From contig CAITDI010000035.1 in the NCBI GenBank assembly GCA_903891095.1, forward strand, positions 1-64,000: a DNA stretch of 64,000 nucleotides, in the 5' to 3' direction. Below, one piece after another: positions 17,573-45,439 of the stretch. Position 1 is the stretch's first letter. Each line of letters opens with the position of its first letter. The notes below the pieces were generated by a model. That model worked only from the letters and a program-made list of their open reading frames with translations. It was not told the origin of the DNA and ran no database searches. Position numbers and translations under genes: made by a program. Source of the stretch: an uncultured bacterium. GTDB lineage: Bacteria; Planctomycetota; Phycisphaerae; Phycisphaerales; SM1A02.

Positions 17573-18277
17573 ATGCCGCGGGGGCGTTACCTTTCCAACA
17601 TGCAGACTCGAACGATCGCTTCGGCCGTGGTTGCGTCCGCCCTTCTTGCCAGTGGGCTTTCGGGGTGTGGAGCCGCGCCCAAATCCGCGGCGGCGGCGGC
17701 GGCGGCGACTGCTGCGCCTGTTTCGCGCGGTCCAGCGGCGGCCGAGGTCGCCGCGCTCCTCGCGGGCGCGTACACCAGCGCCGAGCAGGCGAAGGCCGAC
17801 CCGGAGTTCTTCGAGGTCGAGCTGCACATGGTGCCGATCTGGACGGATCGCGCCGACGGCAAGTGGCTGTATGTCGAGCAGGCGATGGCGACCGCGCTCG
17901 ACAAGCCGTACCGGCAGCGCATCTATCACGTGGTGGACGCGGCGGACGGCGCGGCGGAGAGCTTTGTGTTCGAGCTGCCGAACGCCGCCGAGCGCGTGGG
18001 TGCTTGGAAGACCCCCGCGGTCTTCAACGCCGACAAGGCCGAGACGCTGACCAAGCGTGACGGCTGCTCGATCAGGCTGACGCGCGCCGCCGACGGCTGG
18101 ACGGGCTCGACCACGGGACACGACTGCCCGAGCGCGCTCAAGGGCGCGAAGTACGCGACGAGCGAGGTCAAGCTGTTCGCCGACCGCATCGAGACGTGGG
18201 ACCGCGGCTTCAACGAGAAGGACCAGCAGGTCTGGGGCGCGAAGAAGGGCCCCTACCGGTTCACCCGCGTCAACTGA
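17573..18277 (+). CDS. CpcT/CpeT-family lipoprotein
   Basis: Protein of about 234 residues with a lipoprotein signal peptide (VVASALLASGLSGC) and an Ala-rich linker. The mature part carries the CpcT/CpeT pattern: YVEQAM, a YRQRIYHV segment, and a carboxy-terminal RGFNEKDQQVWGAKKGPYRF. In cyanobacteria this fold attaches bilin chromophores to phycobiliproteins; here nothing suggests phycobilisomes, so the role is unknown. The ATG at 17573 has TACACA seven bases upstream; an ATG at 17600 is the alternative start. Divergent from citrate synthase. Confidence 0.75.
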   Translation: MPRGRYLSNMQTRTIASAVVASALLASGLSGCGAAPKSAAAAAAATAAPVSRGPAAAEVAALLAGAYTSAEQAKADPEFFEVELHMVPIWTDRADGKWLYVEQAMATALDKPYRQRIYHVVDAADGAAESFVFELPNAAERVGAWKTPAVFNADKAETLTKRDGCSIRLTRAADGWTGSTTGHDCPSALKGAKYATSEVKLFADRIETWDRGFNEKDQQVWGAKKGPYRFTRVN

Positions 18278-18284
18278 GTCGCTG

Positions 18285-18446
18285 GTGCACGGCACGTGCC
18301 ACGCAGTGCCAGGCACTCGGCGGCACGTGCCGTGCACGATCGCCATCAGCGACTCCGCGCTGCCGCCATCACGTCGCGGGCCACCTGCTGCATGTGCGCG
18401 GCACGTGCCATGCAGTGCCAGGCACTGGACGGCACGTGCCGTGCAC
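18285..18446. repeat. Family A nested palindromes (two copies)
   Basis: Two copies, 18285-18337 and 18394-18446, 109 bp apart. Each has 16-bp outer arms (GTGCACGGCACGTGCC and its complement; one arm imperfect in the second copy) around an inner palindrome AGTGCC-A-GGCACT. They follow the CpcT-like gene directly. Related pairs occur at 27829-27989 and 33510-33650. Confidence 0.85.
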
Positions 18447-18460
18447 AAATCGTTGTGGGT

Positions 18461-18512
18461 AAAAACAAACCCGCGGCGCTCCCTTTTGGCGCGCCGCGGG
18501 CTCCCTTTGTTT
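18461..18512 (-). terminator. Strong intrinsic terminator, extended stem
   Basis: Perfect ten-base-pair stem CCCGCGGCGC/GCGCCGCGGG (18470-18479 with 18491-18500), followed on the minus strand by TTTGTTTTT. Outer AAACAAA/TTTGTTT segments can also pair, so it may work weakly on the plus strand too. It would end the candidate RNA. Confidence 0.7.
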
Positions 18513-18875
18513 CCCATCTCAACCGCTTCCCGGCGGCTGAGACGTTTCCCTAAAACCTCGGCGAGCGAGCTCGCTGAGATCCCTCCTGAAATCTCACGAT
18601 CGGGCGTCCCCGGTCGTGAGCTTGTGAGCGGCAGGTTCCCTTTCCGCCGTTCACTGGCAACTCGGCCTAGTACCGAATCGCCGTCCCTTTTTACCTCCGC
18701 CCGTCTTCAGGTCCCTCAACCCGAAGACTTGCGAATTCTCGAAACCCGTCCCTAACAGGCTCGAGGCCGACCTTTCGATCGGCACGTGCATTCTTCCGTC
18801 AAATCCGCGGAAGTGTTGCTGCCACTGGGAGTTTTCATGAACTTTCCTCGGCTGTCTTCAGATCCTCCTGCGAAA
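18461..18875 (-). ncRNA. Candidate structured RNA, Csr/Rsm-sponge-like
   Basis: No convincing gene is visible between 18447 and 18979. Instead there is a chain of hairpins: 18470-18500, 18517-18542, 18558-18577, 18593-18620, 18624-18652, 18657-18682, 18703-18728, 18766-18783 and 18793-18813. On the minus strand GGGA occurs about 11 times between 18480 and 18752, several times in hairpin loops, and GGA about 19 times overall. This is the pattern of CsrB/RsmZ-type RNAs that titrate CsrA. The minus-strand transcript would end at a strong intrinsic terminator at 18461-18500. A weak CATAAC at 18882-18887 could be its -10 box. Strand is not settled: wobble pairs are split between the strands. No known Rfam family was recognised by eye. 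Confidence 0.45.
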
Positions 18876-18979: not shown

Positions 18980-20404
18980 ATGCGCGACATGCTGCTGTCG
19001 GGGTTCCGCTCGTTCCGAGTTCGGCTGGCTTGTCTGGTGCTGGCCAGCTGCGCCGCCGCGTGCCTCAGCAGCCCGACCCATGCGGCCACACCGAGCGACT
19101 CCAACTCCGACTTCTACGCCCGCGCCGGCCGCGAGATCAGTTCAAAGCACTACCGAATCCTGAGCGATCTCGATCCCGAGAGCACGCGCAACTACGCGAC
19201 GCATCTCGACCTGATCTACGAGGAGTACGCCAAGCGCCTCTCGGGCCTCTCGCAGAAGGCACCCGAAATCCCCTTCGTGCTGATGTTCGCGCATCAAGCC
19301 GACTACCTCGACGTCCTCAAGCGCACCTACGGCATCGATGCGAAGGGCAGCGGCGGCATGTTCTTCATCTCGCCGGGTGGCGCGGCGCTCGCGTTCTTCA
19401 CCGAGTCGCTGCCGGAGTCGCGCGTGCTGCATGTGATCCAGCACGAGGGATTCCACCAGTACGCGCACAGCCGGTTCGTGGGCACGCTTCCGCCGTGGCT
19501 CAACGAAGGACTCGCGGAGTACTTCGGCGAGGCGATCGTGATCGATGGCCGCGTGATCATCGGGCAGGCGAGCCCAGGGCCGGTCGAGACGATCAAGAAG
19601 GCGATCGACCAGGGGCAGACGATCGACTTCCTCCGCCTGCTCACGATGACGCCCGACGACTGGAACGGCAACGTGCGCAATGGCAGCGCGGCGATCCAGT
19701 ACATGCAGTCGTGGTCGATGGTGCAGTTCCTCGGATGGGCCGAAAACGGGCGCTATCAAGCGGGTTTCGAACGCTACCTCGTGCTGATCCACGACGGCAT
19801 GCCGAGCGACCGCGCGTTCGTGCAGGCGTTCGGCACCAACGACGTCAAGAGCTTCGAGACGACCTGGAAGGAATGGGCCCGCAACATGAAGCCCAGCGCG
19901 CTCGGCACGGCCGCGCTGCGCATCACGTTCCTTGCCGAAGGCCTCGCAATGCTCTCGCACGAAGGCGTCAAGGTCGAGAGCCTCGACGATCTGGTGACCA
20001 AGCTGCGCGAGCGGAACTTCGCGACCGAAGTCACCGTGCACGGACGCAGCGAGCGCATGGAGGCGAACGACACGGTGCTGCAGATCCCCAAGGACGAGCT
20101 CGCCAAGGAACAGCCGGTGTTCGACCTCATCCCGGCCAAGGTCGGCAAGTCGACGACGTCCGACCGCAAGCGCGAGGCGGATCACCCGACGCCGCCCGTC
20201 ATCACCACGCGCGGGATGCAGCCGCGCGAACTCGTGCTCAAGTGGACCCGCCTCAAGTCGGGTGACTTCGATTTCGAGCTGCTTTCGCCGAACAAAGCGC
20301 CCCCGCCGCCGAAGGCCAAGCCGGACGGCAAGTCCGACGGCAAGTCGTCGGCCGTGCCCGACAAGTCGAAGGACACGGGCGGCGAGAAGAAAGCGCCCAA
20401 GTAG
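18980..20404 (+). CDS. Secreted gluzincin-type metallopeptidase (DUF1570-like)
   Basis: Protein of 474 residues with an amino-terminal signal peptide (LACLVLASCAAACLSSPTHA). The zinc motif HEGFH (HExxH) is followed about 20 residues later by NEGLAEYF, which supplies the third zinc ligand as in peptidase_MA-like proteins. The final 60 residues are Pro/Lys/Asp-rich with repeated KPDGKSDGKS and look disordered. Likely exported; substrate unknown. No Shine-Dalgarno; TAGACT lies six bases before the ATG. The sigma factor gene follows. Confidence 0.8.
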   Translation: MRDMLLSGFRSFRVRLACLVLASCAAACLSSPTHAATPSDSNSDFYARAGREISSKHYRILSDLDPESTRNYATHLDLIYEEYAKRLSGLSQKAPEIPFVLMFAHQADYLDVLKRTYGIDAKGSGGMFFISPGGAALAFFTESLPESRVLHVIQHEGFHQYAHSRFVGTLPPWLNEGLAEYFGEAIVIDGRVIIGQASPGPVETIKKAIDQGQTIDFLRLLTMTPDDWNGNVRNGSAAIQYMQSWSMVQFLGWAENGRYQAGFERYLVLIHDGMPSDRAFVQAFGTNDVKSFETTWKEWARNMKPSALGTAALRITFLAEGLAMLSHEGVKVESLDDLVTKLRERNFATEVTVHGRSERMEANDTVLQIPKDELAKEQPVFDLIPAKVGKSTTSDRKREADHPTPPVITTRGMQPRELVLKWTRLKSGDFDFELLSPNKAPPPPKAKPDGKSDGKSSAVPDKSKDTGGEKKAPK

Positions 20405-44588: not shown

Positions 44589-45439
44589 GCGGCGCGCAGC
44601 ACCGGCACGCGCAAGGCCACGCGCAAGGCCACTCGCAAGGCCACTCGCAAGGCCACGCGCAAACGAACCTGCGCACGCGCGCGATGCGCGCGCTCGCCCC
44701 ACTCGCGGCCGTCGTCGCCGCGATCGCCGCATGGGCGCTGTTCAAGCAGATGTTCGGCGTCAAGGACTTCGTGCTGCCGTCGCCGCTCGGCGTGCTGCAC
44801 GCGTTTACCGAGGATCCCGCGCCGTTCCTGCGCGGGACGCTGGAAACCGCGACCAGCGCGGGCATCGGCTTCGCGATCGCCGCGATCGGCGGCGTGCTCG
44901 TCGGCAGCGCGCTCTCGCTCTCGCGCGCGATCGAACGCAGCGTGTATCCGCTCACGCTGCTCTTTCAGATGGTTCCGCTGATCGCGATCGCGCCGCTGCT
45001 CGTGATCTGGTGCGGCTACGGCCGGCCCGCGATCGTGGCGAGCACCGCGATCGTCGCGATCTTTCCCGTGATCGCCAACACGCTCGCGGGACTTCGCGCG
45101 CGCGACGCGGGGCTCGACGAACTGTTCGCGATCCTCGGCGCGGGACGGCTGGCGACGTGGTGGAAGCTCGCGCTTCCGTCCGCGGTCCCGTCGATCGTCA
45201 CAGGCCTGCGCATCGCGGCCGGCCTCGCGACGATCGGCACGATCTCAGGCGAGTTCATCGCGGCCGAGGGCGGCGAACGCGCGCCGCTCGGCATGCTGAT
45301 CATGACCTCGCTGCGTCAGTTCAAGACCGACCGCGTGTTCGTGAGCGTCGTGCTCGCGGCGTGCGTGGGATTCGCGATGTTCGGCCTCGTGAGCCTCGCG
45401 AGCCGGGTGCTGCTCGCGCGCTGGATGCGCGGACGCTGA
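44585..45439 (+). CDS. ABC transporter permease (SsuC/TauC type) with His-rich amino terminus
   Basis: Protein of 284 residues with six membrane segments and the permease EAA loop (AGLRARDAGLDELFAILGAG). The first 22 residues are unusual: repeated QGH units (four from tandem 12-bp DNA repeats) give seven histidines before the first membrane segment at about 32-50. Such a cytoplasmic His-rich tail could bind metal or may be a chance product of repeat expansion. The ATG overlaps the ATPase stop (ATGA). Confidence 0.88.
   Translation: MSGAQHRHAQGHAQGHSQGHSQGHAQTNLRTRAMRALAPLAAVVAAIAAWALFKQMFGVKDFVLPSPLGVLHAFTEDPAPFLRGTLETATSAGIGFAIAAIGGVLVGSALSLSRAIERSVYPLTLLFQMVPLIAIAPLLVIWCGYGRPAIVASTAIVAIFPVIANTLAGLRARDAGLDELFAILGAGRLATWWKLALPSAVPSIVTGLRIAAGLATIGTISGEFIAAEGGERAPLGMLIMTSLRQFKTDRVFVSVVLAACVGFAMFGLVSLASRVLLARWMRGR

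Follow-up and report, generated by a model that had tools for sequence, protein, structure and literature searches.

A probable conserved AGGGA-repeat small RNA of planctomycetes with candidate pairing sites in the leaders of PEP-CTERM genes

The RNAs CsrB, CsrC and RsmXYZ carry many GGA motifs in hairpin loops, end in a strong terminator and occur in genomes that encode csrA, and the CsrA motif is ANGGA. The seed of the small RNA GcvB is G/U-rich, and to our knowledge GcvB has no repeated identical seeds. It is described as a multi-target RNA that acts on amino acid uptake or metabolism and pairs immediately upstream of the Shine-Dalgarno (SD) sequence in yifK (PMC3879156). The LhrC RNAs of Listeria are described as carrying the seed UCCC redundantly at three places, in loops and in a single-stranded segment; they target the mRNA of a cell-wall protein and impede its translation, in an interaction that does not need Hfq (PMC4132741). 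ChvR of Caulobacter, also reported as Hfq-independent, binds a single leader at two sites through two stem-loops, and one of these sites is at -20 to -10 (PMC6237742), and Escherichia coli McaS (printed McsA in the source) is given as an RNA that both titrates CsrA and base-pairs (PMC4132741). Among the matches listed in a search of titles and abstract starts of the open-licence literature, there was no planctomycete Csr sponge or base-pairing small RNA, and no small RNA controlling PEP-CTERM proteins.

A probable structured small RNA gene on the minus strand

The locus described here lies in a 64,000-nt stretch of DNA from an uncultured planctomycete, the whole of which is called the window below. 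A gene of the CpeT/CpcT family on the plus strand ends at 18277, and the next gene, encoding a DUF1570 protein, starts at 18980 on the same strand. Because both flanking genes are on the plus strand, a minus-strand RNA would be a separate gene between them. Direct counting on the minus strand of 18461-18875 gives AGGGA 8 times, GGGA 11 times and GGA 19 times, the last two as in an earlier sequence-only reading that had proposed a Csr/Rsm-type sponge RNA here. That reading took one or two GGGA as the chance expectation, which was too low: dinucleotide shuffles of the interval give a mean of 5.2, and 1 of 2000 reaches 11. The striking word is the longer AGGGA, for which the shuffle mean is 1.3 and the maximum 6 (0 of 2000 reach 8). 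Every other stretch of about 275 nt in the window, both strands scanned, holds at most one AGGGA.

Folded, the minus strand gives about nine consecutive hairpins (z -10.2; plus strand, z -7.2), where at least nine had been proposed. GGGA is found in or at the four hairpin loops previously named (18470-18500, 18516-18543, 18624-18654 and 18703-18728) and in or at a fifth (18738-18765). Four of the eight AGGGA and one further GGGA are placed in this way, and the other copies stand in linkers. The strong terminator suggested at 18470-18500 also held up on direct reading of the minus strand, with 10 uninterrupted pairs (CCCGCGGCGC/GCGCCGCGGG) around 11 bases, followed by TTTGTTTTT. It is absent from the output of a simple scanner limited to loops of 3-8 bases, probably because its 11-base loop exceeds that limit; no sigma-70 promoter was returned at the locus by a simple scanner. 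The parts of the gene, in the direction of transcription, are:

18813-18819, minus strand: possible -35-side element GCAACAC; identical heptamer in 7 of 16 genomes of the genus
18789-18796, minus strand: possible -10-side element GAAGAATG; an A-N-AAT box at a similar place shortly before hairpin 1 in 16 of 16, by eye
18461-18787, minus strand: small RNA gene; inferred start, end at the T-rich tail
18766-18783, minus strand: hairpin 1, from the fold
18738-18765, minus strand: hairpin 2; AGGGA 18749-18753 at the loop, covarying stem
18696-18735, minus strand: hairpin 3; AGGGA 18712-18716 at the loop (UUGAGGGA)
18681-18698, minus strand: linker GGAGGTAAAAAGGGACGG; AGGGA 18684-18688, almost every letter invariant
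18656-18682, minus strand: hairpin 4; covarying stem, without AGGGA
18624-18654, minus strand: hairpin 5; nearly invariant, AGGGA 18637-18641 inside the loop
18593-18620, minus strand: hairpin 6; several relatives have a terminator at this position
18580-18584, minus strand: AGGGA between hairpins 6 and 7
18557-18578, minus strand: hairpin 7
18547-18551, minus strand: AGGGA between hairpins 7 and 8
18516-18543, minus strand: hairpin 8; GGGA inside the loop
18502-18506, minus strand: AGGGA immediately before the terminator
18461-18500, minus strand: intrinsic terminator; AGGGA 18480-18484 at the loop, then TTTGTTTTT; a module common to other genera (model R2, below)

A DNA search of 61 genomes found a homologue of the RNA in all 16 genomes of the genus (g1), its own included. 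Matches of 28 nt in two of the 45 other genomes (L019, L020) were judged to be chance, and no plasmid copies of the RNA were found. In the named GTDB collection, 16 stretches contain an exact 19-base word from the linker. Nine of them bear the title Planctomycetota, Planctomycetaceae or Phycisphaera, three uncultured bacterium, two Candidatus Kuenenia, one Deltaproteobacteria and one Limnohabitans; the last two are taken as misnamed bins. Conservation of the GGA sites in relatives, on which the sequence-only reading had made its proposal depend, is seen in the genus alignment, where four AGGGA are invariant in 16 of 16 rows while the stems covary. In hairpins 2-5, both sides change in 16 of 42 pairs and 92.8% of cells pair across the 16 rows; when the pairing is slid, at most 45% of cells pair, and 0 of 500 shuffles reach any of five measures. 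Wobble pairs had been described as split between the strands, but across relatives the minus strand has 74 G-U cells and the plus strand 10, and the RNA is placed on the minus strand because of these counts. A plus-strand RNA was rejected on the same counts together with its weaker fold.

The repeated word is nearly strict. Among ANGGA words in the 16 RNAs, AGGGA occurs 86 times, AAGGA 4 times, and ACGGA and ATGGA not at all, in a tally that ended at an early T-run in the window RNA and took 5 of its 8 AGGGA. In a fixed 360-nt stretch at the 16 g1 loci, the base after AGGGA is C or A in 86 of 91 cases. The 3' part of the RNA is modular, ending after hairpin 6 in some species and carrying extra hairpins in others. 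These data support the conclusion that the minus strand of 18461-18787 is a conserved, structured small RNA with an intrinsic terminator.

The surroundings of the gene vary. At locus L016 (1582-2925) a citrate synthase gene, identified by Pfam match, is directly downstream of the RNA gene, and locus L013 resembles this neighbourhood by eye. Since the window RNA adjoins a CpeT-family gene and the L016 RNA adjoins citrate synthase, the neighbourhood is not kept throughout the genus. Just beyond the 3' end of the RNA gene in the window are two palindromic 53-nt repeats (18285-18337 and 18394-18446; 92% identical), and other hairpin or tandem repeats occupy the same place, by eye, in several relatives (L006, L010, L012, L014, L018).

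Related RNAs and csrA genes in the family

Rfam gave no match to the RNA at gathering. Relaxing the limit to E 10 brings 15 weak matches: 12 come from microRNA models and fall on the palindromic repeats (18278-18454), and a single one, Clostridiales-2 (E 9.8), overlaps the RNA. A known RNA family was rejected on these grounds. The Rfam search by which the Csr/Rsm identity was to be checked gave no Csr or Rsm family, either at gathering or, going by family names, among the 15 matches to E 10.

Related AGGGA-array RNAs are spread over some ten genera, all in a single planctomycete family. A core model (R1), run on 151 family genomes, finds diverged copies in genus g57 at E 2e-5 to 0.03. A three-AGGGA pattern matched 121 of the 151, many of the matches listed being simple repeats. 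It also brought out, in eight g60 genomes, an RNA that ends in a terminator and holds 6-9 AGGGA; in g60, N of ANGGA is G in 56 of 71 words. A terminal-module model (R2) matches 41 of 301 genomes of the order, 39 of them in the same family (10 genera); of 10 g1 genomes listed it missed 7, with short as well as long forms of the RNA. In about 340 nt upstream of R2 matches, AGGGA occurs 4-6 times in g43 (3 read), 7 times in g46 (3 read), 7-8 times in g44 (2 read), 4 times in g61, 3 times in g2, 4 times in g14 and only twice in g3. Arrays were read in g57, g60, g43, g46, g44, g61, g2 and g14. R2 matches in two f6 genomes, outside the family, are without AGGGA and were judged to be chance, as were weak R1 matches in G108, G036 and G162, which showed no array on reading; the G108 RNA is at another place (L439). 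The loci L034, L036, L037, L447 and L448 are weak covariance-model matches without an AGGGA array on reading.

The genome of the window has two csrA genes, in line with the sponge proposal, and csrA is found in 148 of 151 family genomes, including 98 of the 98 good ones. One csrA lies between FliW-like and flagellin-like genes, as read from their translations; L127 3657-3890 (minus strand) and L126 3896-4207 (plus strand) are the paralogue loci. The second paralogue (type B) has 77 amino acids and a lower score, and the VHR motif is kept in both. The diverged paralogue has an insertion after the GD motif and is present also where the first paralogue is missing. The nine g60 genomes have one csrA each, type B by score; seven of the nine were translated, and all are type B. 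A GacA-type box, an element of the gammaproteobacterial sponge RNAs, was not found at the locus; the one match in the window within 3 mismatches is at 45161.

The complementary word in PEP-CTERM leaders

PEP-CTERM genes of g1 were picked by family TIGR02595, which is present in 16 of 16 genomes, and not by motif. Eighty were fetched, leaders were 120 nt, and start codons were chosen by signal peptide. The TIGR02595 search is not fully specific, with matches in 7 of 14 control genomes, two of them over the cut-off. The g1 and g17 proteins whose leaders carry AGGGA do not reach the family cut-off, and one PEP-CTERM match with an AGGGA leader (G006:C128) was left out of the 80. The top 5-mer in the 80 leaders is TCCCT, the exact complement of AGGGA, with 59 occurrences versus 22.8 under an order-2 model and 17.2 +/- 3.8 in shuffles (79 leaders), although it is carried by only 27 of the 80. 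Leaders of 78 non-PEP genes hold 6 TCCCT; these include loci picked for the AGGGA pattern, which biases their AGGGA count, while TCCCT was not selected for. When similar proteins were removed, in three random orders, 37, 34 and 38 TCCCT remained in 61, 60 and 61 leaders versus about 11 expected, and 0 of 500 shuffles reached these counts in each case. This filter was used in place of a harsher one that grouped proteins by their common tail and gave 9 versus 4.3 +/- 2.0 in g1 (31 leaders) and 7 versus 1.8 in g60 (12 leaders).

The g1 finding is exploratory, and g60, g57 and the control genera were examined afterwards as a prediction. In g60, TCCCT, predicted beforehand, is the first of all 5-mers (25 versus 5.7-8.3 expected; 36 leaders), and with similar proteins removed it occurs 13-15 times in 22 leaders versus about 3.6. 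The small g57 set of 10 leaders has 5 versus 1.6, which makes TCCCT the fourth word. Control genera g54, g40, g19 and g22 show no TCCCT excess in 49 leaders (4 versus 4.1-4.5, 455th word). These genera served as controls because eight of their nine genomes were without the AGGGA triple; G033 had two, G036 had one 26-nt R1 match, and the other seven had neither. Among 610 kb of g44, g46 and g43 there are three PEP-CTERM-like genes, all in g44; TCCCT stands in the leader of one of them and AGGGA in the leaders of two.

Measured from the start codon, 23 of 59 TCCCT in g1 are at -40 to -20 and 13 of 25 in g60 are at -30 to -20. A G or T precedes the word in 50 of the 59 g1 cases and in 22 of the 25 g60 cases, which agrees with the C or A that follows AGGGA in the RNA. 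In both genera, then, one coherent class of mRNAs, that of the PEP-CTERM proteins, is enriched for words complementary to the RNA close to its ribosome-binding sites. Computed duplex energies are weakly specific, with a slight separation in g1, where the real seed gives the best mean (-14.1 versus -13.4 to -13.8 for nine permuted seeds) and 38 strong duplexes (-14 or below) versus 24-40, and a moderate one in g60 (-12.7 versus -11.2 to -11.9). Against g1 seeds, g60 leaders have a better mean with AAGGG than with the real seed.

AGGGA itself was followed from single cases as a shared word of PEP-CTERM leaders and dropped for lack of clear enrichment (g1, 9 versus 6.7 in shuffles; g60, 10 versus 5.1 +/- 2.2). 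A search for AGGGA pairs before ATG led to PEP-CTERM-like genes of g1 with AGGGA at the SD, and similar leaders occur in g17 and g3. In five PEP-CTERM-like genes (L122, L123, L124, L153, L463) AGGGA is repeated in the leader, its last copy falls at the SD position and some copies flank a hairpin; these genes are candidates for CsrA regulation. Leaders that resemble CsrA targets, having AGGGA at the SD, thus coexist with UCCCU leaders. Genus-wide pattern counts before ATG were set aside as evidence because they do not discriminate the two words: in the 16 genomes, two TCCCT give 430 versus 130 in the reversed control and two AGGGA give 196 versus 73.

Interpretation and comparison with known systems

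Fixed AGGGA(C/A) loops, together with an excess of the complement just upstream of the ribosome-binding site, make many-seed base-pairing the simplest account of the locus. We give a probability of about 0.52 to the reading that the RNA of 18461-18787 (minus strand) is a trans-acting, multi-seed base-pairing small RNA on the mRNAs of PEP-CTERM surface proteins. One RNA carries several redundant identical seeds in unpaired regions; AGGGA, mostly followed by C or A, would be offered from loops and linkers alike. Each seed could pair with UCCCU (GUCCCU or UUCCCU) in the leaders of PEP-CTERM-type mRNAs. These words are most frequent at 20-40 nt from the start codon, on the upstream side of the SD. 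The simplest effect of pairing there would be to keep ribosomes from loading and so repress PEP-CTERM proteins together, and several sites per leader with up to eight seeds per RNA would allow multivalent binding. We infer expression of the RNA, its actual pairing, repression instead of activation, and any helper protein. On the evidence of the two complementary words, the RNA probably regulates the cell surface through base-pairing to surface-protein messages. If this is right, a conserved small RNA family of about ten planctomycete genera is at hand, a short code ties it to a surface-protein regulon, and its seeds are inverted relative to UCCC-type RNAs, with purine in the RNA and pyrimidine in the message. 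Post-transcriptional control of exosortase-type surface proteins would then become directly testable by five-letter swaps.

A Csr/Rsm-type sponge, as the sequence-only reading had it, would use its AGGGA loops to bind the CsrA dimer, most likely type B, and titrate it from mRNAs with AGGGA at the ribosome-binding site. What stands of that proposal is the AGGGA loops, which fit ANGGA, the terminator, and the csrA genes found in nearly all genomes of the family with VHR in both paralogues; g60 has both the RNA and a single type B gene, and g17, g3, g1 and g44 have PEP-CTERM-like leaders in which AGGGA is repeated and its last copy is at the SD. Membership among the Csr/Rsm sponges is not supported: the Rfam matches include no Csr or Rsm family, and the locus has no GacA-type box. 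In 86 of 90 ANGGA words the variable base is G, which is stricter than CsrA needs. AGGGA lacks clear enrichment in PEP-CTERM leaders, and a sponge leaves UCCCU unexplained; TCCCT as the top word of these leaders favours base-pairing. The sponge is possible, but it is not the best-supported reading and we consider it unlikely.

An RNA that both titrates CsrA and base-pairs, as McaS does, would account for AGGGA-at-SD and upstream-UCCCU leaders among the PEP-CTERM genes of one genus, but leaders with AGGGA are scarce and show no clear enrichment, and we rate this somewhat below the sponge. A stronger form, in which CsrA removal turns on PEP-CTERM mRNAs with AGGGA at the ribosome-binding site while UCCCU pairing turns off others, would make one five-letter code, in both senses, a switch between two sets of exported proteins; we hold it to be improbable. 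About equally improbable is that AGGGA is the site of another RNA-binding protein and the leader TCCCT an unrelated element. A protein might recognise UCCCU, or the word might serve a transcription factor, for example as a DNA site of the PEP-CTERM regulon, or enhance translation as a pyrimidine element: simple GTCC-rich tracts make up some of the leaders, and the strand specificity of TCCCT would equally be expected of a direct-repeat DNA site. Against this, the top word is exactly complementary, including the preferred flank, and word and RNA co-occur by genus. The genera are related, so a single event may lie behind both the RNA and the TCCCT words, which speaks against the base-pairing reading.

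Compared with described systems, the RNA resembles CsrB, CsrC and RsmXYZ in its GGA-rich loops, its terminator and the presence of csrA in the same genome, and differs from them in the lack of an Rfam match, the near-strict AGGGA and the complementary word in mRNA leaders. With GcvB, as far as described, it would share a functional class of mRNAs as targets and sites just upstream of the SD, whereas seed composition and targets differ. ChvR, in the account available to us, has two different seeds, three predicted hairpins and one target (PMC6237742). No sequence relation to LhrC, which is from another phylum, was seen; the repeated word is AGGGA where LhrC has UCCC, and LhrC was not among the Rfam matches, which is uninformative if Rfam is without LhrC. 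Like LhrC as described, the RNA has redundant seeds in loops and single-stranded parts of one molecule and, presumably, surface-protein targets. The LhrC UCCC seeds are discussed in connection with SD binding, (PMC4132741), whereas the planctomycete RNA has AGGGA as its seed and its presumed UCCCU sites are upstream of the SD. We favour the view that the RNA would work as a mirror image of LhrC, with seed and site exchanged.
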